Positions 5,377-26,550 of a stretch of 64,000 nucleotides of DNA are shown one piece after another. Below the pieces are notes generated by a model. It ran no database searches, had not been told where the DNA came from, and worked only from the letters and a program-made list of their open reading frames with translations. The stretch covers positions 310,001 to 374,000 of the forward strand of contig NZ_VFOR01000002.1 of assembly GCF_006716235.1 (NCBI RefSeq), read 5' to 3'. A program made the position numbers and the translations under genes. This DNA comes from Propioniferax innocua (GTDB taxonomy: Bacteria; Actinomycetota; Actinomycetes; Propionibacteriales; Propionibacteriaceae). Each line of letters starts with the position of its first letter. The first letter of the stretch is position 1.

Positions 5377-5409
5377 TCACACGTTGAAACAGAACTCCAC
5401 CACGTCACC
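5377..5409 (-). repeat. ychF-terminus repeat, copy 3
   Basis: The best native-type copy: the minus strand reads Gly-Asp-Val-Val-Glu-Phe-Cys-Phe-Asn-Val-stop. It shares with ychF itself the block GGTGACGTGGTGGAGTTC, so it preserves sequence on both sides of the presumed crossover. Confidence 0.85.
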
Positions 5410-6663: not shown

Positions 6664-6678
6664 TAACGCTAGACGTTA
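6664..6678 (-). promoter_or_regulatory. Probable HigA operator, first module
   Basis: TAACG-CTAGA-CGTTA is a 5-bp inverted repeat with a 5-base spacer just upstream of higB. The same arms and spacing occur before the second higBA module (12797-12811), which strongly suggests the HigA binding site. It overlaps the stop-codon end of repeat copy 4. Confidence 0.65.
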
Positions 6679-6714
6679 AACCGGAACTCCACCGAGTTCC
6701 GATGGATACGGCCA
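6669..6714 (-). repeat. ychF-terminus repeat, copy 4 (symmetric type 1)
   Basis: Minus strand reads Arg-Asn-Ser-Val-Glu-Phe-Arg-Phe-Asn-Val-stop. The core is a perfect dyad: CGGAACTC (6682-6689), centre CACC, GAGTTCCG (6694-6701). The stretch to about 6714 (GATGGATACGGCC) is shared in looser form with copies 5 to 9, making the unit about 46 bp. Confidence 0.85.
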
Positions 6715-7027: not shown

Positions 7028-7311
7028 TGGCCCCACAGACCAGCCCATACCGCGTCGAGCTGACCGCACGAGCACGCAAGCAGCTGAAGAAGATGGACCG
7101 GTTCGACGCCAGGATCCTCGCCACCTGGATCAAGAACAACCTCGACGGCTGTGCCGACCCGCGCGCCTTCGGCAAGGGGCTGGCCGCGAACCGCTCAGGC
7201 GAATGGCGCTACCGCGTGGGCTCCTACCGCATCCTCGCTCTCATCCACGACGACATCGTCACCATCGAGGTCTTCTCGATCGGTCGCCGCGACAAGGCCT
7301 ACGACGACTGA
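7027..7311 (+). CDS. relE: RelE/ParE-superfamily toxin
   Basis: A 94-residue RelE-type protein: YRVELTARARKQLKKMD, DARILATWIKNNLDGCADPRAFGKGL, then the catalytic strand GEWRYRVGSYRILALIHDDIVTIEVFSIGRR, with the Arg residues and final GRR-x-KAYDD typical of ribosome-dependent mRNA interferases. It ends ten bases before repeat copy 5, so the cassette boundary lies immediately behind the stop codon. Confidence 0.9.
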   Translation: MAPQTSPYRVELTARARKQLKKMDRFDARILATWIKNNLDGCADPRAFGKGLAANRSGEWRYRVGSYRILALIHDDIVTIEVFSIGRRDKAYDD

Positions 7312-7320
7312 GCCGATTCA

Positions 7321-7366
7321 CTACACGTTGAAGCGGAACTCCACCGAGTTTCGTTGGATAGAGCCA
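7321..7366 (-). repeat. ychF-terminus repeat, copy 5 (type 1)
   Basis: Minus strand reads Arg-Asn-Ser-Val-Glu-Phe-Arg-Phe-Asn-Val-stop. Arms CGGAACTC and GAGTTTCG flank CACC, one mismatch from perfect symmetry. Flank TTGGATAGAGCCA matches copy 4. Confidence 0.85.
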
Positions 7367-7506
7367 CCACCAATCCCCCACAGAAAGGCACGCCTTCTCT
7401 GGGAAATCCGAAGGGGGCAAGGATGAGCCACATGAGGCACTTGCCGCGATCGCCCGCCTGGTGCTGGTCAGGCCGCCTCTCAGGAAACCCGGCGGCAACC
7501 AAGGAA

Positions 7507-8109
7507 CTATCTCTGCGTTTCACATCTGGAGTGAATGGTTGACACTTCGGCTCGCATGATGTCGAGAGCCCATCCAGGATCCTCATCCGGCGAGCGATGC
7601 ACCAAATGGAATGCGATGCCATCGATGAGCGCGTGGAGTCGCTGAGCGGATGCGCGCATGTCCGTTGATTCACGAGAACAGCCCGACAGCAACTCGACCA
7701 AGCGGAGCATGACTTCCTGCAGCTGCCGATGAGCTTCGTCCTTGATTGCCACAAGTTCAGGCAGCGCCGCAGCCTCAGCTGCGAGCGCCAGGTCCACTTC
7801 CATCTCCGCCCGCGAGTCCGCGGACAACGGAAGCAACTGCTCAATGACGTTGAGGGCATACTGCTCTGGGTCATCCGTCGACGACACCGCGAGCACTCGC
7901 TCAGTCGCTCGTCGCAGCATCAGCTCAGAGGAGAACTGCATCAACTCGGCGCGGGTTGGGAATACGTGCCGGAGCGATCCAACCACCACCCCGGCTTGAT
8001 CAGCAACACTGCGAACCGACACGGCGGAGATGCCCCTATCCAAGATCACCTGCCACACCGCCTCGGCCAGCTGTTCCTTCCTCGCATCAACATCAAGCCG
8101 CCGGGCCAC
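7507..8109 (-). CDS. TetR/AcrR-family repressor
   Basis: About 200 residues. The N-terminal HTH is KEQLAEAVWQVILDRGISAVSVRSVADQAGVVVGSLRHVFPTRAELM (given as family pattern: helix, turn, recognition helix ending in the Phe of the TetR signature). The rest is a helical ligand domain. I take GTG at 8109; TTG at 8118 is the alternative. Divergent from the MmpS-like/GAP genes, with two near-identical palindromes in the gap, so it very likely represses both directions. Confidence 0.88.
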   Translation of the reverse strand: MARRLDVDARKEQLAEAVWQVILDRGISAVSVRSVADQAGVVVGSLRHVFPTRAELMQFSSELMLRRATERVLAVSSTDDPEQYALNVIEQLLPLSADSRAEMEVDLALAAEAAALPELVAIKDEAHRQLQEVMLRLVELLSGCSRESTDMRASAQRLHALIDGIAFHLVHRSPDEDPGWALDIMRAEVSTIHSRCETQR

Positions 8110-8119
8110 AAGCCACAAT

Positions 8120-8166
8120 CTAGCACGGTTGTGCTAGGTTCGCTTTGTAGCACACCTGTGCTACAA
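8120..8166. promoter_or_regulatory. Two tandem TetR-type operators
   Basis: First site CTAGCACGGTTGTGCTAG (8120-8137): 7-bp arms CTAGCAC/GTGCTAG with a 4-base spacer. Second site 8145-8166: 9-bp arms TTGTAGCAC/GTGCTACAA with spacer ACCT. Both share TAGCAC-N4-GTGCTA and lie eight bases apart between the divergent tetR and lipoprotein genes. Confidence 0.8.
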
Positions 8167-8179
8167 GGAAGGAGTCGGA

Positions 8180-8662
8180 ATGCCCGCAGCAGAGAAGCAG
8201 GCCCTCATAGCTTCTGCGCTCTTGGCCGTTGTGGTTGTCGCGCTGAGCGGATGCGGTGTCGTCCAGGACACGATCGACGGGATGACCGAGCCGAGCGCCA
8301 CCAGCCAGCCATCGAGACCGAGCCCACCCCGGCCCGAGGAAACGGACGGGCTCACCGTGACGATCACCGTGGAGAGCGACGCCGAGACCTCTGGCGAGCT
8401 GACTGTGGACGTTGACTCCCCTAGGGGCGGTCAGAGCCTTCGCAAGAAGTCCGTCCCCTTGCCCTTCAAGCGGGAATACACCGTGGCTACGGACTCAATG
8501 TTCCCGCTACGCGCCACACACGTCGAGGTCGTAGCCGACCCTGCCGCAAGCTACATCGAATGCAGCATCAGCACAGGCGGCCAAGTCGTCGCCAGCCACC
8601 GGGCCGAAGGAAGTTCAGCCACAGCCACGTGTGATCGCAGCCTGCGGCTCGGAGCATCGTGA
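8180..8662 (+). CDS. MmpS-like lipoprotein
   Basis: A 160-residue exported lipoprotein: signal segment ALIASALLAVVVVALSGC with lipobox LSGC, then a Pro/Ser-rich linker (PSATSQPSRPSPPRPEET) and a beta-rich domain. The domain pattern VPLPFKREYTV, FPLRATHVEVVADPAASYIECSI, GGQVVASHRAEG, ATC resembles the immunoglobulin-like domain of mycobacterial MmpS proteins, including the paired cysteines. Good ribosome site GGAAGGAG. It overlaps the next gene (GTGATG), forming a two-gene operon under the TetR operators. Confidence 0.7.
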   Translation: MPAAEKQALIASALLAVVVVALSGCGVVQDTIDGMTEPSATSQPSRPSPPRPEETDGLTVTITVESDAETSGELTVDVDSPRGGQSLRKKSVPLPFKREYTVATDSMFPLRATHVEVVADPAASYIECSISTGGQVVASHRAEGSSATATCDRSLRLGAS

Positions 8663-12882: not shown

Positions 12883-13228
12883 TCAGCCGTCAGCAGCGTG
12901 CGCCCGCAGCGCCTCGGCAAGCGGCGGGAGATGAGCCTCCACGACATCGCGGACGACATCGATGTCGACCCCGAAGTACTGGTGGACCAGGATGTTCCGG
13001 AACCCACGGATCTGCGGCCATGGCATGCTTGGATGCGCAGCGGTGATCGATTCGGGCAGATGTTTCGCGGCCTCCCCCGACGATCTGGAGATTCCGCTCG
13101 AGGGCGTCTTCGGCCATGGAGACGATGTCGGCGTCATGCTGGTGCTGAGCGAGGAGCTCCACGTAGCGGGTGGATCGAGAGATCGCTTCCAGGATGTCTG
13201 CCACCCGGTCGCCCGCCGAACGGCTCAC
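12883..13228 (-). pseudogene. hepT: HepT-type HEPN ribonuclease toxin, frameshifted
   Basis: DUF86/HepT protein in two frames. The GTG start at 13228 gives SAGDRVADILEAISRSTRYV up to ALERNLQIVG. One extra G in the GGGGG run near 13078 breaks the frame, which resumes as GEAAKHLPESI, WPQIRGFRNILVHQYFGVD and ends at 12883. The HEPN catalytic motif R-x4-H-x-Y (RNILVHQY) is intact in the second frame. Removing one G restores a protein of about 114 residues. It overlaps the mntA stop by four bases (GTGA). As read, full-length toxin would not be made. Confidence 0.85.
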
Positions 13229-13554
13229 AACGGCACCGCGTCGTCCAGCGCCGTCTGCGAGACCTGCCGCTTCAGCAGCTGCACCGGAAAGACGTCCACC
13301 GTATCGGTTCCGAGGAGCAGCCGGACTTCTTCCATGAGGCCAGAGGCACGCATCAGCAGATTGCCGTCTGCAGGGCCCATCTCCACCAGGATGTCGATAT
13401 CGCTGCCAACATGCGCGTCGCCCCGAGCCACGGAGCCGAACAGCATCGGGTTCGTCGCACCGTACTTCGCAAGCAGACGCTCAAGATCATCGCGGCGCGA
13501 CTCGATGAGCTCACGCATGGCGAGAGTTTCCGACGTCGCAGCGTTGGGGGCCAT
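13225..13554 (-). CDS. mntA: MntA-type nucleotidyltransferase antitoxin
   Basis: A 109-residue minimal nucleotidyltransferase with the polymerase-beta motif GSVARGDAHVGSDIDILV (Gly40-Ser41, Asp52 and Asp54) that in MntA AMPylates the HepT toxin and silences it. Coupled to hepT by GTGA overlap, the standard order for this system. Start at ATG 13554; ATG 13518 is possible but has no ribosome site. The module lies between repeat copies 8 and 9, its start 45 bases after the ychF-like stop of copy 9. Confidence 0.88.
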   Translation of the reverse strand: MAPNAATSETLAMRELIESRRDDLERLLAKYGATNPMLFGSVARGDAHVGSDIDILVEMGPADGNLLMRASGLMEEVRLLLGTDTVDVFPVQLLKRQVSQTALDDAVPL

Positions 13555-13598
13555 GCCCCTAGCGTACTCGGGCACGCCCCTCACACCATGGACGACCC

Positions 13599-13644
13599 TC
13601 AGACGTTGAAACGGAACTCCACCGGGTTCAGGCACGTACCAACC
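13599..13644 (-). repeat. ychF-terminus repeat, copy 9 (hybrid type 1/2)
   Basis: Minus strand reads Leu-Asn-Pro-Val-Glu-Phe-Arg-Phe-Asn-Val-stop. Left arm CGGAACTC is type 1 and right arm GGGTTCAG is type 2, centre CACC. It is the reciprocal of the combination in copy 6. Confidence 0.85.
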
Positions 13645-13718
13645 TCTAGGACGCACGCCCGCAGGCACGGATTCGCCGGCTTCGGCGTGGCTTGCTCTCC
13701 GATTGATAGCGTCAAGAC

Positions 13719-14462
13719 ATGATCACCGCCGCACTCCGACAGCTTATGGAGACCGCCGCTGCCCATGCGCAGCGGTGCAACGATGACAACGACCACACAG
13801 TCGCCGCCGCCTTGCTGACAAGGTCAGGTCAGACCGTACTTGGCTTGAACGCCTTCCATTTCCTCGGCGGTCCATGCGGCGAAATCTCCGCACTGGCCAA
13901 CCACGCGGCCACATGCCCCGATGACCCCATTGTCACCGTGGTCGCGGTATACGGCCCGACAGGCCAAGTGATTTCTCCGTGCGGAAAGTGTCGTCAAGTG
14001 CTGTTCGATATCGACCCCGCCATCCAATGCATTGTCCGCGGCAGCAACGGGCTCGAAGCGCTGTGCGTCTCCGACCTGCTTCCTCACGCCTATGACTGGA
14101 GCGCCATGGAACTCCCACAAAAGGTCTTCATGTGGGAAGGCTACGAGCCGGCCATCAGAGATGGGTCCAAGCGCCAGACCATCCGCGTCGACGATCCCTT
14201 CCGACCTGGGCCAGCACAGCTCGTCTTCGAAAAGGAGAGCGGCGAGGTCACTACCGTCGACGCGAAGGTCACCTCCGTGATTTCCACACGCCGTTGCGAC
14301 CTCACCGAGGAACAAGCACAGCGTGACGGCTTCGCCTCATTGACCGAGCTGCACAAAGCCCTCGACATGCACTATCCCGGTCTCGAAATGGAAGACAGCA
14401 TCGACGTCGTGACTTTCGAATTGAGCAGTGCCGCAGAATGCGACTCCAACCCCAGAGGTTAG
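13719..14462 (+). CDS. Cytidine deaminase-like / ASCH domain fusion
   Basis: A 247-residue two-domain protein. Residues 1-130 are a cytidine/blasticidin-deaminase fold: the zinc-site half GGPCGEISALANHA (Cys and catalytic Glu) and PCGKCRQVLFD (two more Cys ligands). Residues about 135-235 form an ASCH domain, recognised by YEPAIRDGSKRQTIRVDDPF, an Arg-rich strand TSVISTRRCDLTEEQAQRDGF and EDSIDVVTFEL. ASCH domains bind RNA or modified nucleosides, so a role in clearing or editing modified cytidines, possibly in phage defence, is an inference. The stop codon lies inside repeat copy 10. Confidence 0.8.
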   Translation: MITAALRQLMETAAAHAQRCNDDNDHTVAAALLTRSGQTVLGLNAFHFLGGPCGEISALANHAATCPDDPIVTVVAVYGPTGQVISPCGKCRQVLFDIDPAIQCIVRGSNGLEALCVSDLLPHAYDWSAMELPQKVFMWEGYEPAIRDGSKRQTIRVDDPFRPGPAQLVFEKESGEVTTVDAKVTSVISTRRCDLTEEQAQRDGFASLTELHKALDMHYPGLEMEDSIDVVTFELSSAAECDSNPRG

Positions 14463-14491
14463 TTATTGAAGCGGAATTCGACCACGTCTTC
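14459..14491 (-). repeat. ychF-terminus repeat, copy 10
   Basis: Minus strand reads Glu-Asp-Val-Val-Glu-Phe-Arg-Phe-Asn-Asn-stop, native-type with one changed codon. It overlaps the stop codon of the deaminase gene and starts three bases before the end of the zinc-ribbon gene cassette. Confidence 0.8.
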
Positions 14492-14493
14492 GT

Positions 14494-15192
14494 TCATTGG
14501 TCGCCTCCGTCTGTCTTATCTACAGGCCACCAATGTTCGTCGTTCTTGACACATTCCGCAGCCATTCGCCGTTGCGTAACTTTGCGCTTCCCCGTGTTCA
14601 GATCATCTTCCCACTGAACAGGCTTGTCGTAGAATCGCAGCCGACCACCGTCGAACGGGCAGGTTCCTTGCATGCGAGCAAGACCGATCCTTCTACCCCA
14701 GCCAGTAAGCGCCGGGAGCCAAGACAGTGACGGGAAATGCTGGGTCTCGTTCCTTGCAACGCGACGCAGAAACATGGCTAGGGAAAAGACGACTACGAGT
14801 CCCAAGAAAACAAACGCCCAGACAGGCTGGGCCGGCTTGAGATTTCCGATACCATCCATACCGAGAAACGTGCTGACTAAAGGTTCGACAACCTTGTAGA
14901 CCGACCCAAGACTCAGGAGTCCAGAGATCACGCTGATCCAGGTGAGAACAGCAAGCGTCAAGGGGCTTCGCCAAGACCATTTCGGCTCATATGTGGCGCG
15001 GGCTTCCTGGGGCTCACCTCCCAGGTGAATGTCACCACCAGCCTGAAACACACCACCCGAGATATCGCCGCCACCGGTATCGACGTTCTGATTGGCTCCG
15101 TTATCGCTATTTCCTAGCCGCTTGCCGCACTCCGGGCAGAACCGCGCACTTTGGGGGACTTCCGCCCCGCAAGCCGTGTTCGGGCAGATCAT
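14494..15192 (-). CDS. Zinc-ribbon membrane protein with Gly-rich strand motif
   Basis: A 232-residue protein: N-terminal double-Cys zinc ribbon (MICPNTACGAEV, then CPECGKRLG), a linker NQNVDTGGGDISGGVFQAGG of the type seen in effector-associated prokaryotic proteins, two membrane segments (LTLAVLTWISVISGLLSLGS and PVWAFVFLGLVVVFSLAMFL) and a cytoplasmic tail with CPFDGGRLRFYD. Function unknown. Its ATG overlaps the stop of the ychF-like tail in repeat copy 11 by four bases (ATGA), exactly as hsdM overlaps ychF. Confidence 0.75.
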   Translation of the reverse strand: MICPNTACGAEVPQSARFCPECGKRLGNSDNGANQNVDTGGGDISGGVFQAGGDIHLGGEPQEARATYEPKWSWRSPLTLAVLTWISVISGLLSLGSVYKVVEPLVSTFLGMDGIGNLKPAQPVWAFVFLGLVVVFSLAMFLRRVARNETQHFPSLSWLPALTGWGRRIGLARMQGTCPFDGGRLRFYDKPVQWEDDLNTGKRKVTQRRMAAECVKNDEHWWPVDKTDGGDQ

Positions 15193-15312: not shown

Positions 15313-16706
15313 TCACCGCGACCGCAAGGTGGTTGGAGAAGGATGACCCCACGTGGGCTGTGGTGAGCAGCGCATAGTCAGCACCGGGTAGCGCCGGGAA
15401 CCACGTCGAGATTGAGATACAGACGACCCGGCAGGGAGCGACTTCTCCCGTAAGGCACGGAGGCCCGACAGGGCCCAGTGGAGCATCGCGCACGGCGACC
15501 GGGAAAGTAGCCGGACAACTATTCCCCCGTCTCCGGACAGTTCAAGCTGTCTGGAGTTGTCATGGGGTACTCCCCACCTCCTTCGTCCGATCTCACTCAC
15601 TACATCACGCTCCAGGAAGCCGTCTCGCTCGGCTACGGCGCGTATCAGACCCTCCGGAAGTGGCGCAGAATTGCGCACCCGCTGGTCACTGATCGCCGAG
15701 TCGATACCTGCCGTCTGTGGCCCGCCGTCCGCGAGCTCGACCATGACCCTCGCGTCCTTACGCGCCAGACGCTTGGCGATGACCGTCATGACGAAATCGT
15801 CGATGGCCGCGCCCGAGCGGACGATGTGCCCTGCGCACTTGTAGCCGCGCGGTGCTCCGGTCACTTTTCTCCCGCACACCTCGCCGGTCTCCTCGTCGGC
15901 GTATCCGCACCGGTAGAGCCCGCTGCCAAGGTGCTTGCGCTTAGTCGAGCCGGATGTGTTCGTCACTCGCTCCGTATCGTCGAGGACTTGCTGAGCCTTC
16001 CACCACGTCTCGTCGTCGACGATCTGCTCCCACTGCCCCCGGATCGGCTCACCGGCGTCGTCGCGGAGGATCTGTGGCTTCCACATCCGGCGGCGCTTCC
16101 CGTCCGCCTGGGCAAGCTTCGGCGTGTACGTACTCAGCGCCGCATAGCGCGGGTTCCGCAGGATGCCCAGCACGGTCGAGGGAGACCACGGACCGTCCTC
16201 GACGATCGGCCGGGGTTCGAGGCCTTGCCGCTCGCGGGCGGCGGCGCGCTCGACACTCACGATGTGCGTGTGCTTGGGAAGAGGCGAAAGGTCATCGATC
16301 TTCTCGGAGCCGCCGAGCGCCCGCGCGAGCGAACGCAGCGACTCGGGGTGCTCGATCCTGGTGAACAGGTCGTAGATCGCCCTCACGGCCTCTGCCTCGT
16401 GGGGAATCACCTCGCCGTCTACGGCGTAGCCGAGTGGTCGCATACCCTTCGGAGCACGACCCTGCATGGCGCGCTGACGCTGGGCTGCGGACTGACGGGC
16501 GCTCTTGCGTTCCATCTCAGCACGCGCCACGGCGGCCTTGATGCGTGCATACATGCGCCCACCGTCGGTGGAGAGGTCCGCGTCACGTTGGCTGTGACGA
16601 GGGCAAGTCCGCGCAGCTCGGCGGCGTCGATCCAGTCTTCCAGCTGCCGGGGCTGCCGAGTGAGTCTGTCGAGGTCGTAGCAGATGATCGGGGACTGCTG
16701 CACGAA
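15313..16706 (-). pseudogene. Large serine recombinase, truncated and frameshifted
   Basis: Remnant of a large serine recombinase. The catalytic domain is cut away: recognisable sequence begins with SPIICYDLDRLTRQPRQLED and ITAAE-like helix up to ALVTAN. One missing base near 16585 shifts the frame, which resumes at DLSTDGGRMYARIKAAVARAEMERKS. The recombinase domain (KGMRPLGYAVDGEVIPHEAE, WSPSTVLGILRNPRYAAL) and zinc-ribbon cysteines (YRCGYADEETGEVCGRKV, YKCAGH) follow. Family similarity stops near 15700, and the remaining reading frame to 15313 is antisense to another fragment. No catalytic serine is present, so it cannot act. Probably the former integrase of the island. Confidence 0.82.
15562..15690 (+). 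pseudogene. Possible excisionase-like HTH fragment
   Basis: On the plus strand, opposite the non-homologous end of the recombinase frame, the sequence reads MGYSPPPSSDLTHYITLQEA then VSLGYGAYQTLRKWRR. This resembles the first helix-turn-helix of MerR/excisionase-type proteins found with integrated elements. After about 15690 the similarity stops and the frame runs antisense to the recombinase. If correct, two truncated genes meet tail to tail at a deletion junction here. Confidence 0.3.
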
Positions 16707-16930
16707 CAGGTGACAGTGGTTAGTCACGCAGCCTGAATAGCTGGCGTGGTCATGATTGTCTCGAACTCGAGCTGGACCCCCGACCAAGCCACGAGTGCCC
16801 CCATTCTTTAGGGCGTTGTCCCACGTCAGGTCCTATTTCCCTGTCGAAGCGGTGTGAGGGGTAGAGGAGCTCGTTGAGCGTGTAATGGTCAAAGGCGGTG
16901 AAGCCCTCTACTCCGACGGCGACACCGCGA

Positions 16931-18133
16931 TCAAGCTTTGGCACGCCCAGCCGACAACATGAGCCGGTTTGCGTAGCCGATGAGACTGGTGACCAACATG
17001 AGAACCTGGATGCAGTTGCGCTTACTGAACTGACGCGAGGAGACGCCATGCACGCTCGCATGGCGCGAGTAGTAGTTCGGCACCTTGTCGCCCTTGTGCT
17101 TCCAGAACTGCTCGTGGGCGTTCCAGATCGGCAGCCAGACCATCGCCTCGTGGACACCCATCTCGTCGATGGCGGCCGGCACGTCCGCGCCCTTCTTCCG
17201 ATTCGTGATGAGGCGTCGGGCGGCCTGGTCGGGGTAGAAGCGGTAGATGAGCGTGTCGAGCGTGACGGTGAACATCGCCTGGGCCGAGCGGAAGTGTCCA
17301 GAACGCATCGCGCCGAGCCCGTCGAGTACGAACTTCAGCTCGTCGCCGACTACGTCGCGGTTCGCCTGCTCAAGAACGGTAGCGCAGTCGTCGGTGATCG
17401 ACTCGTAACAGTCACCCAGCACCCGCCGACGGCCCGAGCGGTCCTGTGCCCGGAGCAGGCGGAGCACTGTGCGGCCGCGAGGCACCAGGTAGAGCGGGAT
17501 GCCCTCCTGCTCGAGGAACTCATGCACTTGATAGGCCTTGATCTCGTCTGCGTGGCTCCTCAGATTAGGCGGGAGGAGCGCCCGGTTGAACCCGCGCAGC
17601 ATCTGCGGGTCGAAGAGCGGCTTCAGGGAGCCGCGCAGCCCCTCGAGCATCGCGGCCTGCTGGCTCGCGATCTGCTTGAGCATCGGCTCGATCGCTGGGC
17701 TGACTCCGACGCCCTTCAGCGTCGGAAAGTCGATCATCGGCCCCGTGAACGTCGGTAGGCTCGCCACGATCGACGCCACCTGCGACTTGACCCGCTCGTT
17801 GTACGGCTCGAGCGCATTCTTGACCAGCGCGTCGTAGTCAGGCAGCGCCGACTTCATCTGCTCCTGGAGGCGCCGGTTCAACGGCCCCATGATGTCCCGC
17901 GCGTACGCCGAGGGGTCCGGGAGCATCGCCTTCATCTGCTCTCGGATAGGCGCGAGCATGTTGGCAACGGTGACGTCGATGTTGGGCATCAAAGACTGCG
18001 CGAACCTTGGCGACAGTCGAAGCCTCACCCCGTCGTCCGCAGCAGAGTCTCCGTCTTGCTCGCTCTCCGAGTTGCGTTCCCTCTCTTGGGCGGGCTCGAG
18101 ATCGTCCTCACGGTCATCGTCGTCGCGTGTCAT
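16931..18133 (-). CDS. HEPN-motif protein associated with type I restriction locus
   Basis: A 400-residue soluble protein. Residues 1-35 are acidic and disordered. A long helical part follows (ALPDYDALVKNALEPYNERV and similar). The C-terminal third is predicted helical and ends KVPNYYSRHASVHGVSSRQF then CIQVLMLVTSLIGYANRLML. R357-x4-H362 (RHASVH) followed by Gly fits HEPN ribonuclease motifs of abortive-infection type proteins. It lies 85 bases behind hsdR on the same strand, so it is likely part of the restriction operon. Ribonuclease-based back-up defence is an inference. No family name can be given confidently. Confidence 0.75.
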   Translation of the reverse strand: MTRDDDDREDDLEPAQERERNSESEQDGDSAADDGVRLRLSPRFAQSLMPNIDVTVANMLAPIREQMKAMLPDPSAYARDIMGPLNRRLQEQMKSALPDYDALVKNALEPYNERVKSQVASIVASLPTFTGPMIDFPTLKGVGVSPAIEPMLKQIASQQAAMLEGLRGSLKPLFDPQMLRGFNRALLPPNLRSHADEIKAYQVHEFLEQEGIPLYLVPRGRTVLRLLRAQDRSGRRRVLGDCYESITDDCATVLEQANRDVVGDELKFVLDGLGAMRSGHFRSAQAMFTVTLDTLIYRFYPDQAARRLITNRKKGADVPAAIDEMGVHEAMVWLPIWNAHEQFWKHKGDKVPNYYSRHASVHGVSSRQFSKRNCIQVLMLVTSLIGYANRLMLSAGRAKA

Positions 18134-18218
18134 CGCACTCTCCTGGTCGCCACGCTCGCTCGAACCGACGTTGCATCATCGAGACCGTTGTCGGCACTTT
18201 CGGAAACTCTTGTGCGTT

Positions 18219-21200
18219 TCACGTCGCTGAGTCGGTGACACCCAGTTGTGCGGCCACTTGAGAGGCGAAGGTCGGATCGACGTGGATGCGGGCGACGACG
18301 TCGTCAGCGATCTTGTCCACATCAAGAGGCCCGTCTGGGCCGTCGTACTCCACCGACTGCGCGGGCCACTGGAAATCGACCCGCGGGGTGTAGGCGCTCT
18401 CTCCGTCGTCGCCGTAGGCGGTGAGGACATGATCAAAGACAAGTCGCACCTTCGAGGAGAAGATGTCAAGTGTGTAGGGTGTCTCGGGCAGCTCTTGGTC
18501 TAGGACTCGTCGGATCGTGCTGTCGACGTCATTCATCACGTCGACCTTTCGTCGCCAGTCTTGGACTAGTTTGTCGTGGAGATGTTCCAGCAGCTTCTTC
18601 GCGCTGGCCTTCACCGTGTCACGCTCGTCGTCGGTGAGCACAGGATCGGGCTGGGTCAGCAGATCGAAGAGTGCTAGCTCTTCCTCGGTCATCCCCTCAC
18701 GAGCCGACCGTTCCTCCTCCTTGGTCAGGTTCTGCGACAGCTCGATCAAGCGTCGCAGGTACTCGTCGATGTTCACGCTGCCGGAGTTGTAGTCGTCGAT
18801 CAGCTGCTCGATCCGCTCGACGAGTTCGTACCGGGTGGGGTTACGGGTCGCCGAGACGATGGCCTGCTGGCGGAGCAGTTGCGCCAGCCGGTCCGTCTCG
18901 GCTCGCTTACGACCAGCGAACTTGGTCGCGAGGCCCTCGAAGTCGATCAAAGACAGATCGATCAGCGGGTCTGGCTTGGTGCCTTCGGCAGCGGCGCGAA
19001 TGACGTACTCCTCGGCACCCACTGACCGGTCAAGCAGGGCGTCCACCGCATCCGCCACCGTCCCGAGGTCGGCCTCGGGTGGCCGCGTGACTTCGGAGAT
19101 GCGTTCGGCGAGAACACGTATTGCTGCCACGTTGCGCTGCTGGCCTGCTGCGCTCGGATCTGGCAGGAGGGCCTTGAAGAGTTTTCGGATCTGCCGTGCC
19201 TTCTGTTGGAAGTCGTTGCGGATCTCTTCATCCACCAGGAGCGCCTCGACTGCAGCATCGCGTTTGGCGACATGGTCGAATCCCTCCGCATCCCTCATCG
19301 TCGCGAGATCGACTCCGACACTGGAGCAGAAGGTGAACAAGTCGGCCACAGCTGCATCCAGCTCACCCGCGAGTGCATCGATGATCTCGATGGGCGACTC
19401 GACGGCGTTCGCGGCACCGTAGATCGCCAGGGCCTTCTCCAGGTTTCGGAAAACGCCGACGTAGTCAACGATCAGGCCATTGTCCTTCTCCGGGAATACG
19501 CGGTTCGCACGGGCGATCGTCTGCATCAACGTGTGGTTGCGCATCGGGCGATCGAGATAGATCGTCGAGACACTCGGCGCGTCAAAACCGGTCATCCACA
19601 TCGCGCAGACAAACACCAGTCGCAGCGGGTCCTCGGCGTCCTTGAACTTCTCCGCTAAGTCCTCGCGGTTCATCCGCTCACGGTGCGGCCGAATGTCCAG
19701 CCCGAGGTCGTCGAGCATCTTCAACTCGTTCTGGCTCTGCGAGACGACCACAGCCATGTCGGTGGTCTCCATGAGCTCGATCCGCGAGGCGAGCCATGGC
19801 CGCTCAAGCTCCGGTAGTGCGTCGTGCTCGGCTTTCAATGCCGCCAAGTGCTCGCCCCAGGCCTCCTGGACGAGGTTGTACATGCGGACGGCAGCAGCCT
19901 TGTCGAGCCCGACGTACATTGCTTTACCACTGAACCCGCGCCCTACGAAGTGTGCGACAAGGTCCCTGGCAAGCGTCTTCAATCGCTCCGGGCGGGTGAG
20001 CAACGTGTACTGCGTGCCGAAGTCACGGGCCAACTGGCCTTCTGCGTCCTCGTCGAGCTCAGCATCCTCGAGAATAGCCTCGAGTTCGTCGGAGAAGTTT
20101 TCGTTGGTGAGCTGAAGTTCGGGAATGCGGTTCTCATAATAGAGCGGGACCGTCGCGCCATCTTCAATGGCATCACGGAAGTTATAGACGCTGACGTAAT
20201 TACCAAACTGCTCGCGCGTCACCTGCTCTTCACCCTCGATCAGCGGGGTGCCGGTGAAGCCCATCATCGACGCGTTCGGCAGCGCCGTGCGCATGTTCAG
20301 CGCGAGAGTGTCGTACTGACTGCGGTGCGCTTCATCGGTGATCACGATAACGTCGGAGCGGGTCGAGAGCACCGGCATCTGCCGCTCCCCCAGTGCCTTG
20401 GACGGCTGGAACTTCTGGATGAGTGTGAATACGTAACGGTGATCGGCTGCAAGCAATTCACGCAGGTGGGCGACGGACTGCGCGTGCACCCGGGCCTCTG
20501 GCGAGATAGCTCCGGCGTCGGCGAACTCACCATGCAGCTGAGTATCCAGTTCCGTGCGGTCGGTGACCATGACGAATGTCCAATTGCCCGGTACTTGGCG
20601 CAGCACCTTCTGCGTGAACCACAGCATCGACAGCGATTTTCCGGAGCCCTGAGTGTGCCAGAATACCCCGAGGCGCTTATCCTGGTCGGCCCGGGCCCGA
20701 TGCAGATTCTCGATCGCCGCGTTGACACCGAGGAATTGGTGAGATCGCGCGAGCACCTTGATCAGACCACCAGGCCGCTCCATGTACGCGACGAAGTTCT
20801 CCAGCAGGTCAAGCAGGACGGACGGATCGCAGGTACCTCGAAGCGCAGTCTCCAGAGCGACCACACCGCGGGTGCCGTGGGCGTCGATGACCTTCCAGTC
20901 GTTGAAGAACTCCCACGGCGCGTAAGTTGACCCGACCTTCGCCTGGCTTCCATTGGACAGCAGCACGAAGCAGTTAGGGATGAATAGCTGCGGAATCGTG
21001 TCTCGGTAGTCGGTCAGGTTGTCGTCGTAGGCCGCCTTGACCGACTCGTTGGGCTCCTTGAATTCCATCAGCACCAGCGGTACCCCGTTGACGAACAGCG
21101 CCAGATCCAGCCGCCGGCTGTGCAGGTTGCCCTTGACCCACATCTGCTGAACCGCCAAGAAGTCATTGTTCGATGAATCCTTGAAGTCGAGGAACCGTAA

Positions 21201-21551
21201 GGCCTCCATCTGCTTCACGCCCTGGTCGTCAACCCACTCCGCCAGATAGCCGTCACGCAGCAGATCATAGACTTCCCGATTGGCGCGGACGGGGTCCATG
21301 GCCGATCGGTCCTTGGTGAGGACCTCAACGGCCTCATCGATCGAGGTATCGGGCACATACTCGGGGTTGAGCTTGCGCATAGCAAGCCGCAGCCGGTGAA
21401 CGAGCACGGCATCGCGTTGGGAGTCGCGCCCCAGGCTGCCCCCGGGTCCCAGGATCTCCTGGAAGGCGTCGACTGGAGTCCAGCCGAGCTCCACCAGAAG
21501 CTCGATGCTCGGCTTCTCGACGTACCAGTACTCCGGGCCCGTGGGAGTCAT
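18219..21551 (-). CDS. hsdR: Type I restriction endonuclease subunit R
   Basis: Motor and nuclease subunit, 1110 residues, full length. The N-terminal PD-(D/E)xK nuclease is visible as RRLDLALFVNGVPLVLMEFKEP (Asp149, Glu163, Lys165). The SF2 helicase follows with Walker A HTQGSGKS (302-306), DEAH box ITDEAHRSQYD (406-409), TGTPL, and motif VI-like MRNHTLMQTIARANR. It translocates DNA and cuts remote from unmethylated target sites in complex with HsdM and HsdS. The start overlaps the hsdS stop by four bases, so M-S-R are translated as one unit. Confidence 0.96.
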   Translation of the reverse strand: MTPTGPEYWYVEKPSIELLVELGWTPVDAFQEILGPGGSLGRDSQRDAVLVHRLRLAMRKLNPEYVPDTSIDEAVEVLTKDRSAMDPVRANREVYDLLRDGYLAEWVDDQGVKQMEALRFLDFKDSSNNDFLAVQQMWVKGNLHSRRLDLALFVNGVPLVLMEFKEPNESVKAAYDDNLTDYRDTIPQLFIPNCFVLLSNGSQAKVGSTYAPWEFFNDWKVIDAHGTRGVVALETALRGTCDPSVLLDLLENFVAYMERPGGLIKVLARSHQFLGVNAAIENLHRARADQDKRLGVFWHTQGSGKSLSMLWFTQKVLRQVPGNWTFVMVTDRTELDTQLHGEFADAGAISPEARVHAQSVAHLRELLAADHRYVFTLIQKFQPSKALGERQMPVLSTRSDVIVITDEAHRSQYDTLALNMRTALPNASMMGFTGTPLIEGEEQVTREQFGNYVSVYNFRDAIEDGATVPLYYENRIPELQLTNENFSDELEAILEDAELDEDAEGQLARDFGTQYTLLTRPERLKTLARDLVAHFVGRGFSGKAMYVGLDKAAAVRMYNLVQEAWGEHLAALKAEHDALPELERPWLASRIELMETTDMAVVVSQSQNELKMLDDLGLDIRPHRERMNREDLAEKFKDAEDPLRLVFVCAMWMTGFDAPSVSTIYLDRPMRNHTLMQTIARANRVFPEKDNGLIVDYVGVFRNLEKALAIYGAANAVESPIEIIDALAGELDAAVADLFTFCSSVGVDLATMRDAEGFDHVAKRDAAVEALLVDEEIRNDFQQKARQIRKLFKALLPDPSAAGQQRNVAAIRVLAERISEVTRPPEADLGTVADAVDALLDRSVGAEEYVIRAAAEGTKPDPLIDLSLIDFEGLATKFAGRKRAETDRLAQLLRQQAIVSATRNPTRYELVERIEQLIDDYNSGSVNIDEYLRRLIELSQNLTKEEERSAREGMTEEELALFDLLTQPDPVLTDDERDTVKASAKKLLEHLHDKLVQDWRRKVDVMNDVDSTIRRVLDQELPETPYTLDIFSSKVRLVFDHVLTAYGDDGESAYTPRVDFQWPAQSVEYDGPDGPLDVDKIADDVVARIHVDPTFASQVAAQLGVTDSAT

Positions 21552-22801
21552 TCCGCCACCTGCCTCGCGACCAACGCATCAAGATCTAGCGTCGAGATAT
21601 CGATCTGTCCTGTGACCAGCTTCGGCAGTAGGAGATCTCGGAGCGCGGCGAGACGGGAGCACTCATTGCGCAGCCTCCAGCTCAGATCGTGCATTGGAGA
21701 CACCTTGTCAGCAAACGCCGCGTCGACGGCGACATCGGGGACGACAATCGGAGCTTCCTCAAAGTCCTTCGCTCGAACCGCGGGATACGCCGACCCGGTT
21801 GCACGCCCGACGAGCCAGTCTGAGAACGCTGTCGCCGATGATGTCTCGAAGAGGAAATCCGGTGAGACCGTCGATGGGGTCAGCACCGCCAACCCAGTCG
21901 ATGCGATCCAGTCGCTATCGGGAGCAACGAGCAGAGCGTGCGCTCTACGGTTGGGCCGCACGGTTGCCCATACAGTGTCGCCAGGGCTCACAACTCGACG
22001 AGCCCTGCCGGGTGCACTCGAGCCGCCAATAGCCTCCAGCTCGCCGATGTGGCGCTCCGAGAGAGCCGAGATATCGAGGTATCGGAATACCTCGTCACCA
22101 CCTGGTTTACGAGAAGAGCCATTAACTGTGGCGATGGCGGCAAGGGGTTGGACCTCCCATCCATCGGGTATCAGGCCGAGGGCCGAGTCGACCATGGGCA
22201 CGCCCTCGTGGCCGGGGTAACGGAACTTCACGAACCACTCGCGGTAGATGGCCCGCGCCATCTTCTCCAGCACCTCGATCCGCCGCCGGTTGTTCTCGAT
22301 CAATTCGTCGATGGAACGAAGGATCGCTCCGATGCGTTGCTGAGTCGCCAGGGCAGGGACGGCCAGCTTGAAGGGTTTGATCAGTTGCTGACTCAGATTC
22401 TGCTGAGCGGCACCATGCGCGTTCCCGACGAGGCGCTCGCGGGCACCCGCAAGCGCGTAGTAGAGGAAGCGAGCGTCCGCCTCTTTGGGGTCGGTGACCA
22501 TCGCGCAGATAGCCTGATTGACGGTCGCTTCGACGCCCAGCCAGCCCAGCTGGCCCACGTTTGCCCCGTACATGGCCAACAGTACGGTGTCGGGTGGAAG
22601 CAGTTTTGCGGAGGATCTCTCGAGTCCGGCCTCAGAGATGTGCTCCTCGGTCGTAGCGATCCGTGCCCCAATCAACTCCTGCGACTTGACCCAGGGAATA
22701 CCTTCATCGGTATAGTAGTCGGCTCGCTTGCGACTGGGAGTCCCGCCACTGGTCACTCGAGAACACAGTGCCTCGACTGCTACCTCACGCCACTCGCTCA
22801 T
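21548..22801 (-). CDS. hsdS: Type I restriction specificity subunit S
   Basis: Specificity subunit of 417 residues that chooses the bipartite DNA target for both methylation and cutting. Two target-recognition domains are visible: the first ends LAVPALATQQRIGAILRSID followed by the conserved helix ENNRRRIEVLEKMARAIYREWF, and the second starts GLIPDGWEVQPLAAIATVNG and ends in a helix with LRNECSRLAALRDLLLPKLV. The variable domains set the target, which cannot be read from sequence. Coupled to hsdM upstream and hsdR downstream by ATGA-type overlaps. Confidence 0.95.
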   Translation of the reverse strand: MSEWREVAVEALCSRVTSGGTPSRKRADYYTDEGIPWVKSQELIGARIATTEEHISEAGLERSSAKLLPPDTVLLAMYGANVGQLGWLGVEATVNQAICAMVTDPKEADARFLYYALAGARERLVGNAHGAAQQNLSQQLIKPFKLAVPALATQQRIGAILRSIDELIENNRRRIEVLEKMARAIYREWFVKFRYPGHEGVPMVDSALGLIPDGWEVQPLAAIATVNGSSRKPGGDEVFRYLDISALSERHIGELEAIGGSSAPGRARRVVSPGDTVWATVRPNRRAHALLVAPDSDWIASTGLAVLTPSTVSPDFLFETSSATAFSDWLVGRATGSAYPAVRAKDFEEAPIVVPDVAVDAAFADKVSPMHDLSWRLRNECSRLAALRDLLLPKLVTGQIDISTLDLDALVARQVAE

Positions 22802-24348
22802 ACTTCGAGGATCCCTTGAACTGCCGCGTCGACTTTGGTTCGCAGCACGTCGGCCTCGTCACTTAGCGTGGTGAACTCCTCGTACAACGCAGCGAGATCG
22901 CCCATGAAATCGACATCGCTCTCGTCGACGGCGGCAGTGCCGGTATAGCGGCCCGGATTAAGGCTCCAACCTTGGGCTTCGACCTCAGCTCGAGTGGCGA
23001 CCTTGCACAGGCCACCGACGTCGACGTACCTCCCGTCGGGGAAGTTCTCGGCAACGAGGTCGGCGCTGCCATCGACTGTCTGTACGTCCTCGCCACGGTA
23101 GAGCCGGACGATATTGGCCAGGAACTCGATCTGCTCGGGCGTAAAGTCACGGTGGGCACGATCGATCTGGTGGAAGATGTGCCGGGCGTCGATAAACAAC
23201 ACTGTGTCCTCGCGCGGTGTCCCTCCCTTGGCCTTGTCGAGGAACCACAGCGTCACCGGCAAGGTGACGGTGTAGAAAAAGTTGGGGCTGATGGCGACCA
23301 TAACGTCGACGGCTCCCGACTCGATCAACTGCTTGCGGATGTCCTTCTCTGAGTGGCCCGCGTCTCCGGCCGAGTTGGCCATGACGAAGCCTGCTCGACC
23401 CTTCGGTGAGAGTGCCGCGTAGAACTGCTGGATCCACAGGAAGTTGCCGTTGTCGACTTTCGGCAACCCGAACGGGAATCGCTTGTCGCCAGCGAGCTGA
23501 TCCTTCTTGATCTTGTCGACGTTGAACGGCGGGTTGGCCATCACATAGTCGAAGGCGCCAACCGCGCTATGCGGGTTCTCGTAATAGCTGTTGGCTTGGC
23601 GGATATCCCCTGAGAGCCCGTGCAGCGCGAGGTTCATCTTGGCCAGCGGGACGGTGTCCTCGGTCTTCTCCGTCCCGAAGACAGAGAGCTGGCGGCTGGC
23701 CGACTCGTGATGACGCTCGACGAACTTCGCACACTGGACGAACATGCCACCCGAGCCACATGCTGGATCGAAAACGCGGCCGTGGAATGGCTGCAGGACC
23801 TCGACGATGAGTCGGACGATGGAGTACGGCGTGAAATACTCGCCGCCACCCCTGCCCTCCTGTGCGGCGAAGTTGGAGAGGAAGTCCTCATAGATGAAGC
23901 CGAAGGCATCGCCCGCGAGCTGGGTGGGCAGCGGCGCAAAGAGCCGAAGCAACTCGATCAGCGTCGAACGCTCAAGCTTCTGGTAGCCGCGGGGCAGGAT
24001 GTCCTTGAGCTCCGGATTGGCCTCCTCGATGGCCTTGATCGCATCGTCGGTGGCTTTACCGACGTCATCACCCTCGGGAAGATCGACCAGGCTGGACAGC
24101 CGTGACTCGTCGGGGACGTACAGCACCGATTTTGCCTTGTAGTCCGCGACCGTCGCGGGGTTACGTGCGCTGGAGTTGGCCTCAACCTCTTCGCGGACGG
24201 TCTCGAAACGGTTCTCGGCGTACGCGAGGAACACCAAGCCGAGGACTGGGTCGCGATACTGGACAGGCGTCAGCTTGGAGTTCGCGCGCAACTCGTCCGC
24301 GGCGCTCCACAGCGTCGCGCGAACCTTGGCAAGATCAGTTGTCTTCAT
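22798..24348 (-). CDS. hsdM: Type I DNA adenine methyltransferase subunit M
   Basis: N6-adenine methyltransferase, 516 residues: N-terminal helical domain (LWSAADELRANSKLTPVQYR), SAM motif DPACGSGGM (194-202), catalytic NPPF (272-275). It protects host DNA and anchors HsdS/HsdR. Its ATG at 24348 overlaps the stop codon of ychF by four bases, with the ribosome site GGGAGTAAG inside the altered ychF tail. Expression therefore depends at least partly on ychF transcription and translation. No separate promoter is visible in the overlap. Confidence 0.96.
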   Translation of the reverse strand: MKTTDLAKVRATLWSAADELRANSKLTPVQYRDPVLGLVFLAYAENRFETVREEVEANSSARNPATVADYKAKSVLYVPDESRLSSLVDLPEGDDVGKATDDAIKAIEEANPELKDILPRGYQKLERSTLIELLRLFAPLPTQLAGDAFGFIYEDFLSNFAAQEGRGGGEYFTPYSIVRLIVEVLQPFHGRVFDPACGSGGMFVQCAKFVERHHESASRQLSVFGTEKTEDTVPLAKMNLALHGLSGDIRQANSYYENPHSAVGAFDYVMANPPFNVDKIKKDQLAGDKRFPFGLPKVDNGNFLWIQQFYAALSPKGRAGFVMANSAGDAGHSEKDIRKQLIESGAVDVMVAISPNFFYTVTLPVTLWFLDKAKGGTPREDTVLFIDARHIFHQIDRAHRDFTPEQIEFLANIVRLYRGEDVQTVDGSADLVAENFPDGRYVDVGGLCKVATRAEVEAQGWSLNPGRYTGTAAVDESDVDFMGDLAALYEEFTTLSDEADVLRTKVDAAVQGILEV

Positions 24349-24395
24349 TTCTTACTCCCAGACGTAAGCCCCGTCCGGAACTCCACCACGTCACC
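24345..24395 (-). repeat. ychF terminus itself: repeat copy 12, insertion junction
   Basis: The ychF coding end reads Gly-Asp-Val-Val-Glu-Phe-Arg, then Thr-Gly-Leu-Thr-Ser-Gly-Ser-Lys-Lys-stop instead of the Phe-Asn-Val ending known for the family and present in nine upstream copies. The switch falls right after CGG of the core arm, which marks the junction between chromosomal ychF and inserted DNA. Confidence 0.85.
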
Positions 24396-25436
24396 GTCAG
24401 CCATGACGTAGTCCTTGCCTTCAAGACGCATCTTTCCAGCGGCTTTGGCTTCCTGTTCCGAGCCGGCTGCGACGAGGTCATCGAAGGACACGATTTCGGC
24501 CTTGATGAAGCCCTTCTGGAAATCGGTGTGGATCACTCCGGCGGCTTCGGGAGCCGTGGCGCCCTTCGGGATCGTCCAGGCACGGGCCTCCTTCGGCCCG
24601 GCGGTCAGGTAGGTCTGCAGCCCGAGGGTGTCAAACCCGACACGGGCCAACACATCCAGCCCGGGCTCCTCCACCCCGGCGTCGTCGAGGAACATCTGCG
24701 CGTCCTCCTCGTCCATCTCCGCGAGCTCGGCTTCGAACTTGGCGTCGAGGAAGATCGCCTCCGCCGGGGCGACGACCTCGGCCATCTTGGCCTTGGCGTC
24801 CTCATCGGCGAGCTGGTCAGCGTCGCAGTTGAACACATAGATGAACGGCTTGGCAGTGAGCAGGAACAGCTCCCGCAGATGCTCCATGTCGAGCCCTGCC
24901 TGGAAAATGCCCTTGCCCTCGTTCAGCACGCCCAGCGCCTCCTGCCATGCAGCGAGCTTCGGCTGGGAGTCCTTCTTGATCCGGGCCTCCTTCTCCAGCC
25001 GCGGCAGCGCCTTCTCCAGCGTCTGGATGTCGGCGAGGATCAGCTCGGTCGAGATGGTCTCGATGTCACCACTGGGGTTCACTCCCCCGTCGACGTGGGT
25101 GACGTCGGCGTCGGTGAATGCGCGGGTGACCTGACAGATGGCGTCGGCCTCACGGATGTTCGCCAGGAACGCGTTGCCCATACCCTCGCCCTGCGACGCG
25201 CCACGGACGATGCCGGCGATGTCGACGAAGGACACGGTCGCCGGGATGGTCTTCTCGCTGCCGTAGATCTCGGCGAGCTTGTCCAGCCGCGGGTCGGGGA
25301 GCCCGACCACCCCCACGTTCGGTTCGATCGTCGCGAACGGGTAGTTCGCCGCCAGGATGTCGTTCTTCGTCAAAGCGTTGAACAACGTCGACTTGCCCGC
25401 GTTGGGGAGTCCCACGATTCCAATAGTCAAAGCCAC
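24345..25436 (-). CDS. ychF: Redox-regulated P-loop ATPase YchF (OLA1 family)
   Basis: Universally conserved Obg-related NTPase of 363 residues, ribosome-associated and ATP-preferring. P-loop GLPNAGKST (9-17), switch region [30 protein letters not shown], a coiled-coil insert ([20 protein letters not shown]) and the C-terminal TGS domain ([20 protein letters not shown] to [14 protein letters not shown]). The last nine residues are foreign: the family ends in Phe-Asn-Val, here replaced by a Lys-Lys tail delivered by the inserted island. The TGS fold appears complete before the swap, so the protein is probably still functional. The stop overlaps hsdM. Confidence 0.97.
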
Positions 25437-25494
25437 GGCACGCCAGTCTAGGCGAGCCGTGGCCTTGAGTGGAGTCGGCGCGTTTCAGGCCGGA

Positions 25495-26550
25495 TCAGTA
25501 GCGACGGAAGTACGGGTTGCCACCTGCAGCGTCATCGATCGTGTCAATCGCTGGGTCGTGCTTCTGGCTGTAGGTGTGTGCGACCTTTCCATCACCGATG
25601 TAGATGGCCACGTGGTAGATGGAGTCGGTGGAGTTTCCGTAGAACACCGCATCACCGGGCTGCAGTTCGCTGCGCTTGATGACCTGGCCCTTCTTGGCCT
25701 GGTGCTTCGACGAGCTGGGGCCGAGCACGTCCTTGCCGTAGGCGAGAGCGTAGGCCCAGCGAGCGAAGCCGGAGCAGTCGACGCCGACGCGCTCCTCTGC
25801 GAGACACCGGTAGTCCTTGCGCCACGAGTCACAGTTGCCGACGGTCGGGCCGATGCCCTTGGCGTGTCCACCGCTCCACGTGTAGGGGATGACCCCGCCC
25901 TTCCACGGCTGGGTCGTGACGCCACCCTCGAGGGTCTTGGCGGGGATGGCATCACCATTCACGAACTTCTTGGCGTACTCGGCCACCTGGGCGCGCTCAT
26001 TGGGAACCGGCGCGGAGTCACTCTGCGGCTCGCCATACAGCGCCGACCAGGTGTTGGGGCCGACGACGCCATCGACCTGGAGCCCCTTCTTGCTCTGGAA
26101 CTCCTTGATGGCGCCCATGGTTGCCGTTCCGGCGACTCCGTCGACCTCGATGCTGGCTCCGTGCTTGTTGAGCAGGGTCTGGGTCGCGGCGGTGGCCAGG
26201 CTGCGGTCACCGGAGCGAACCTTGACCATCAGGGCGTTCAGCGTGTCGTCACCGGCGACGCCATCGGCGGCGATCCCGGCGGCCTTCTGCTTGGCGATCA
26301 CGGCGGCCTTGGTGTCGGCGCCGAAGACACCGTCCACCTTCAGGTCGGGCGAGGAGTACCGGAGCATGAGCTGCAGGGCGGTGACGTCCTTGCCGCGCAT
26401 GCCTTCCTTGAGCACGATCGGGTAGTCGACCGCAGAGGTCGCGGTAGCAGCGACAGCGTTGTCAGCGGGAGGGGTCAGTGAGAGGGTGGCCGGAACCGCG
26501 AAGGCGGCCGCAGCGGCGCAGCTGGCGATGAGGGCAGCGATTTTCTTCAC
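25495..26550 (-). CDS. Secreted NlpC/P60 peptidoglycan hydrolase
   Basis: Exported cell-wall hydrolase of 351 residues: signal peptide KKIAALIASCAAAAAFAVPA, two peptidoglycan-binding repeats (about 45-110 and 115-175, each with VDG-x-x-G-x-x-T), a linker, and an NlpC/P60 domain with catalytic Cys259 in GVDCSGFARWAY and His313 in IYHVAIYIGDG. It likely cleaves the gamma-D-Glu-diaminopimelate bond. GTG start with ribosome site AAGGAG. The 275-base upstream gap has two GTTAAC hexamers (26730-26735, 26739-26744) that may be regulatory. Confidence 0.92.
   Translation of the reverse strand: MKKIAALIASCAAAAAFAVPATLSLTPPADNAVAATATSAVDYPIVLKEGMRGKDVTALQLMLRYSSPDLKVDGVFGADTKAAVIAKQKAAGIAADGVAGDDTLNALMVKVRSGDRSLATAATQTLLNKHGASIEVDGVAGTATMGAIKEFQSKKGLQVDGVVGPNTWSALYGEPQSDSAPVPNERAQVAEYAKKFVNGDAIPAKTLEGGVTTQPWKGGVIPYTWSGGHAKGIGPTVGNCDSWRKDYRCLAEERVGVDCSGFARWAYALAYGKDVLGPSSSKHQAKKGQVIKRSELQPGDAVFYGNSTDSIYHVAIYIGDGKVAHTYSQKHDPAIDTIDDAAGGNPYFRRY

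Follow-up and report, generated by a model that had tools for sequence, protein, structure and literature searches.

A candidate HEPN-type ribonuclease family encoded behind exchangeable restriction cassettes at the 3' end of ychF

The gene behind hsdR

The window, a stretch of 64,000 nucleotides of Propioniferax innocua DNA (contig NZ_VFOR01000002.1), includes a run of genes all on the minus strand, in the order ychF, hsdM, hsdS, hsdR, a HEPN-like gene and a serine recombinase. In Table 1, we report the features of this region together with the cassettes that take the place of hsdMSR in related loci. The HEPN-like gene starts 85 bp past the hsdR stop, with an AGGAG Shine-Dalgarno sequence upstream of its ATG. 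A simple consensus scan of positions 16600-25500, from ychF through the HEPN-like gene, finds no terminator, and we infer that the run is co-transcribed.

The original prediction, made from the letters of the window, described a 400-residue protein of no recognised family, encoded 85 bases behind hsdR and carrying RHASVHG near its C-terminus. All of this holds: the reading frame and the gap are present, the protein is recognised by none of Pfam, NCBIfam, PADLOC and PHROGs, and residues 357-363 are RHASVHG, in a C-terminal part that reads ...YYSRHASVHGVSSRQFSKRNCIQVLMLVTSLIGYANRLM.... A PDB sequence search with the protein gives nothing meaningful. Purifying selection acts on the reading frame, with a dN/dS (synonymous/non-synonymous comparison) of about 0.12-0.15 at moderate divergence for the C-terminal domain, and 0.4-0.5, a looser constraint, for the N-terminal region. 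The 400-residue frame is a real, previously unannotated bacterial gene, and its product is probably an RNA-cutting "last resort" defence protein.

Table 1. Features of the window around the HEPN-like gene, and cassettes found at the same position in close-clade loci.
Feature	Position in window, or loci	Strand	Basis or remark
Far-side remnant of native ychF end, DVVEFRFNN*	14459..14488	-	likely other boundary of island
Zinc-ribbon protein near island far boundary	14494..15192	-	
Large serine recombinase, truncated	15313..16554	-	catalytic-domain fragment in other frame, 16419-16787
HEPN-like protein gene, 400 aa	16931..18133	-	ORF and homologues
Conserved all-helical C-terminal domain, residues 188-398	16940..17572	-	predicted; pLDDT mostly >90, conservation
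R357-H-A-S-V-H362 motif, R[H/N]x3H	17048..17065	-	R and H invariant, 43/43
N-terminal region, residues 1-187	17573..18133	-	acidic then helical; poorly conserved, faster evolving, low-confidence model
hsdR to HEPN-like gene intergenic stretch	18134..18218	-	Shine-Dalgarno AGGAG at 18140-18144
hsdR, type I restriction endonuclease subunit	18219..21551	-	Pfam and PADLOC
hsdS, specificity subunit	21548..22801	-	Pfam and PADLOC
hsdM, methyltransferase	22798..24348	-	Pfam and PADLOC; ATG overlaps ychF stop by 4 bp
ychF, housekeeping GTPase	24345..25436	-	3' end is island boundary
Boundary repeat GACGTGGTGGAGTTC, ychF-side copy	24378..24392	-	
hsdMSR cassette	window, G093, L023, L024, L044		
Bpu10I-type cassette	L031		
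BsuBI/PstI-type cassette	L041		
Type IIG with specificity subunit	L039		
Type III cassette	L032, L035		
Eco57I-type methylase and helicase	L036		
HsdR and Avs1b-like protein	L033		
GHKL ATPase	L025, L026, L027, L042		
Exonuclease VII large-subunit-like protein	L028, L030		
Without further cassette	L029, L034, L037		

The R/H motif and the predicted domain

Homologues of the protein are patchy: the order has them in 7 of 294 genomes, the phylum in 5 of 396 and the family in 5 of 198. A collection of species-level genomes contains 48 homologue loci, and eight plasmids (from Streptomyces, Nocardia and Dietzia) carry a homologue; the phage records and viral contigs searched have no homologue. Some copies are damaged: the G093 gene is split by an insertion, L042 has a frameshift, and L041 and L045 have stop codons, although part of these broken copies may be assembly errors. 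The G093 insertion, of about 1.7 kb, falls just ahead of the R/H motif (about 5.6-7.3 kb in L087, which corresponds to 3503.6-3505.3 kb of contig C1 in G093). That several copies are broken indicates a dispensable function. Two homologues (L063, 9533-10786, and L065, 9569-10810) have a MarR/ArsR-like winged helix, apparently N-terminal, in place of the usual region.

An alignment of 43 homologues (actinobacterial sequences and two from Chloroflexi, plasmid rows being left out) has only four invariant columns, P218, Q285, R357 and H362. Both R357 and H362 are thus unchanged in 43 of 43 members; at position 358, 37 members have H and the other six have N. Residue 293 (D293 in the window) is acidic, D or E, in 42 of 43; the form Ex3[KR] that is typical of HEPN domains, with K or R at +4 after residue 293, appears in just 11 of 43. 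Because one of the genome-scan patterns included the R/H motif, we checked its retention separately among homologues that whole-protein or whole-profile searches had recovered, and it is kept in 7 of the 7 aligned. Complete plasmid homologues also retain it. As a sequence pattern the motif is above chance, and the catalytic signature of HEPN domains is R[N/H]x3H, in which the second residue is polar (PMC3710099). Across the superfamily the spacing is Rx4-6H, the polar residue after the arginine is N, H or D, and the expected RNase activity is metal-independent. Known members of PF18735 (HEPN_RiboL-PSP) include RHRIAHG and RHPIAHG, which places the RHxxxHG variant within the HEPN repertoire. 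What we have is an undescribed, mainly actinobacterial family whose alignment displays R[H/N]x3H, the pattern of a HEPN-type active site.

From the 43-row alignment, AlphaFold2 models residues 188-398 confidently as an all-helical domain and the N-terminus with low confidence; modelled alone, the C-terminal domain reaches a pLDDT of 94 and a pTM of 0.92. In the model, the motif is a short helix between a 17-residue loop, which separates it from the preceding helix, and the long last helix (371-399); the modelled motif-to-helix spacing is unlike that of Ymh, a HEPN family (PMC3710099). A Foldseek search with the full model is dominated by the disordered N-terminus. With the C-terminal domain alone, Foldseek returns nothing below an E-value of 1.5, and no HEPN structure stands above the helical background in either Foldseek or VIA-align. 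We rejected the VIA-align rows with Z up to 6.3 as unrelated helical bundles, and set aside a Csm6 row at Z 3.6, which we do not count as evidence. In BFVD, one phage protein is matched, A0A8S5NQ77 (prob 0.97, E 0.24). Some hhalign alignments against Ymh (PF09509), Abi_C (PF14355) and HEPN_RiboL-PSP (PF18735) place motif on motif, with scores for the HEPN-like family against known HEPN families that equal those of column-shuffled controls, the alignments being shallow. The accepted HEPN families also miss each other in hhalign, with the exception of Ymh against Abi_C at 6% probability, and the test is therefore without power.

The original prediction named hydrophobic helices and the HEPN R-x4-H motif. 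The helices are predicted, the motif is invariant and position 358 is H or N; the structure prediction, proposed as a check for a HEPN four-helix bundle, gives an all-helical C-terminal domain with no HEPN match in Foldseek or VIA-align, and the fold and profile searches together neither establish HEPN nor speak against it. By motif and predicted topology, membership in HEPN is likely. If the helical domain were not an RNase and the protein were instead an accessory or regulatory factor, its R/H pair serving structure or ligand binding, the lack of HEPN support from the fold and profile searches would be expected, and the MarR-like N-terminal winged helices of L063 and L065 would be easy to accommodate. 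The invariant motif with its polar second residue, being the HEPN catalytic signature, argues against such a factor, which we regard as quite improbable.

An island at ychF with exchangeable cassettes

The HEPN-like gene comes after ychF, with a variable cassette in between, in 17 loci that include the window and the relative G093. Close-clade loci have it as the unchanging 3' gene of an island joined to the 3' end of ychF, in which a large serine recombinase is usual. L038 shows the native ychF ending, DVVEFRFNV*, from which the tail of the window ychF differs; a native-like DVVEFRFNN* lies beyond the recombinase, and together these observations fit DNA having inserted at the ychF 3' end. The window recombinase is truncated and frameshifted with respect to a 521-residue frame in G093, so this enzyme can probably no longer move the island. 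Past the island there are more pieces resembling a ychF tail, at 6669-6693 (VEFRFNV*) and 5377-5409 (GDVVEFCFNV*), both on the minus strand, which suggest that several insertions may have stacked at ychF.

Other features of these surroundings are reported for their own sake. A plus-strand gene that adjoins the far boundary of the window island (13719-14462) encodes a cytidine-deaminase fold fused to an ASCH domain. On the minus strand at 12890-13668, a nucleotidyltransferase-domain gene (13225-13668) directly precedes a short helical ORF (12890-13228), a pair that resembles HEPN-MNT; the small ORF has no Pfam match and may be degraded. The L034 contig, of 3939 bp, has the ychF 3' end on one side, an internal piece of ychF on the other and a Ymh-HEPN pair between them, an arrangement that may stem from assembly or represent a minimal island.

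We scored the cassette as whatever lies between ychF and the HEPN-like gene, or directly before the gene. By a raw count that excludes L033, 11 of the 21 close-clade loci have a restriction cassette upstream of the gene, and four have a GHKL ATPase. On the gene tree, the cassette type switches 12 times; GHKL cassettes occupy three places and type III cassettes two. Between type I loci, synonymous divergence is about 0.06-0.07 in the HEPN-like gene and about 0.6 in hsdR, and DNA identity is highest over the 3' half of the HEPN-like gene; low against high silent divergence and the identity peak indicate that gene and cassette are exchanged independently. The HEPN-like gene is the constant of the island, and the restriction cassette between it and ychF is swapped. 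Beyond the close clade, restriction genes adjoin the family in three loci (L011, L049 and L064), in a survey by homology to our own probes that under-counts restriction genes. The association with restriction advanced in the original prediction is therefore recurrent in about half of the close clade, with distant homologues mostly apart from restriction genes, and the specific tie to hsdR and type I systems gives way: the same gene stands behind types I, II, IIG and III, behind GHKL ATPases, or behind none of these. As for individual cassettes, the GHKL ATPases, of 683-737 residues and without PADLOC match, lie directly before the gene (7941-9992 in L026, 4562-6775 in L025) and possibly form a two-gene defence system with it. 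The L041 island, which holds the BsuBI/PstI-type system, also encodes a DUF3644 protein (7239-8342), the PADLOC candidate PDC-S19.

These observations bear on whether the protein is a latent toxin in the manner of PrrC, silenced by binding to HsdMSR and released when a phage inactivates restriction. The operon-like place past hsdR with no predicted terminator, the same gene order in five type I loci and the precedent of PrrC with EcoprrI (PMC3710099) would all suit such a toxin. The gene is found equally behind unrelated type II, IIG and III enzymes or with no restriction genes, its silent divergence, ten times lower than in the hsdR next to it, speaks for separate histories, and Pfam finds no ABC ATPase in the protein, unlike in PrrC; we therefore think a toxin held by HsdMSR unlikely. 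The constancy of the gene in a serine-recombinase island whose cassettes are exchanged, and the fact that HEPN domains are common as toxins (PMC3710099), would also agree with a selfish rather than antiviral function, in which the toxin stabilises the island by punishing its loss. Against this stand the window, which has no adjacent antitoxin gene, the broken copies that persist in several islands, and the distant homologues that sit outside such islands, and we give a selfish stabilising toxin only a slim chance.

In ten loci, the HEPN-like gene overlaps by 4 bp with a Ymh gene whose 270-residue product matches the PD-Lambda-3_B model over its length (E 7e-69). PD-lambda-3 has been reported as an abortive-infection system (PMC13190303). 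We considered whether the HEPN-like protein could be PD-Lambda-3_A and dropped the idea, the protein having no match to the PD-Lambda-3 models; in seven genomes with the family and two with Ymh only, the PD-Lambda-3_A model finds no confident match and one at chance level. If Ymh and the HEPN-like protein worked as a heteromeric RNase or as a toxin-regulator pair, the window copy would be a derived one that has lost Ymh. The overlapping gene pairs, the Rx4H motif present in both proteins and the homology of Ymh to PD-Lambda-3_B are in keeping with two subunits. Ymh is nonetheless missing beside the gene in the window, in the other type I loci and in the GHKL loci, a search of the window genome for PF09509 gives no match, and the distant homologues are also without Ymh. 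For these reasons, we hold a two-subunit system to be improbable.

Interpretation and comparison with known systems

The reading that we prefer, and to which we give a little better than an even chance, is that the family consists of autonomous HEPN-type abortive-infection RNases, which provide a second layer of defence next to restriction cassettes that can be interchanged. Its own N-terminal region, or its dimer state, would normally keep the protein silent; infection, the putative trigger, would switch it on, and the cleavage of RNA would then stop phage growth. In the window, as the last gene of the ychF-hsdM-hsdS-hsdR-HEPN run, it would be a second layer behind DNA restriction, and by analogy with PrrC it may fire when restriction fails. 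The gene is kept behind types I, II, IIG and III as well as alone on plasmids, so that dependence on one restriction complex is unlikely, and this is why we favour an autonomous RNase over the four alternatives above; plasmid and chromosomal homologues without restriction neighbours likewise point to autonomous function.

We count in favour of an autonomous RNase the invariant R357 and H362 with H or N at 358, the acidic residue 293 and the occurrence of RHxxxHG in PF18735; the predicted all-helical domain with the motif right before the long last helix; the restriction and GHKL cassettes with their switches on the tree; and the Ymh overlaps, given that Ymh matches an abortive-infection component. 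Counted against it are the libraries, Foldseek, VIA-align and hhalign, none of which supports HEPN above background, the 17-residue loop with a motif spacing unlike that of Ymh, and the broken copies. A variant that we deem less probable by far, though worth stating, is a portable RNase module, with or without Ymh, that serves any restriction cassette and responds to a signal shared by every restriction system, for example cut DNA or anti-restriction; with Ymh it would act as a heteromer of two HEPN proteins.

What is new here is an unannotated family, mostly from Actinobacteria, whose active site is probably that of an RNase, together with a mobile island that keeps this suspected RNase while very different restriction types are exchanged. 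If our preferred reading is true, a second layer need not match one restriction enzyme, and the family amounts to a small set of natural RNase-restriction combinations that can be tested.

The combination of HEPN with restriction is itself a known theme, of which the HEPN-like family is a new instance. HEPN RNases beside restriction systems were proposed as a multi-pronged defence in 2013, with at least 16 HEPN clades (Anantharaman et al. 2013, PMC3710099). The HEPN-like family has in common with those restriction-linked RNases the R[N/H]x3H motif, a (predicted) helical domain and the restriction neighbourhood, and differs from them in having no match to their library models and in not being tied to one restriction type. 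PrrC, an HEPN anticodon nuclease in the type Ic hsdMSR locus of EcoprrI, is the proven case of an HEPN RNase as a second layer beside restriction (PMC3710099). Both it and the window protein are encoded with hsdMSR and proposed as a second line, and the window gene does lie within a type I hsd locus, after hsdR, a placement that is not constant in the family, which is also found behind other restriction types. PrrC has an ABC ATPase fused before its HEPN domain, whereas the HEPN-like protein has no Pfam domain at all. The likeness to PD-lambda-3 (PMC9519451, PMC13190303) is in the Ymh of the ten sister loci, which matches PD-Lambda-3_B; the pair of A and B is absent (no confident PD-Lambda-3_A in the nine genomes), and the window has no Ymh. 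HEPN-MNT toxin-antitoxin systems share the HEPN-type motif and the context of a small mobile island, but no nucleotidyltransferase adjoins the HEPN-like gene, whose neighbours are hsdR and the serine recombinase. Finally, among RM hotspots with exchangeable cassettes, the immigration control region of Listeria is also a single chromosomal site that hosts diverse restriction types (PMC10059834); the site described here differs in lying at the ychF 3' end, in having a serine recombinase and in that its cassette is closed by a fixed HEPN-like gene.
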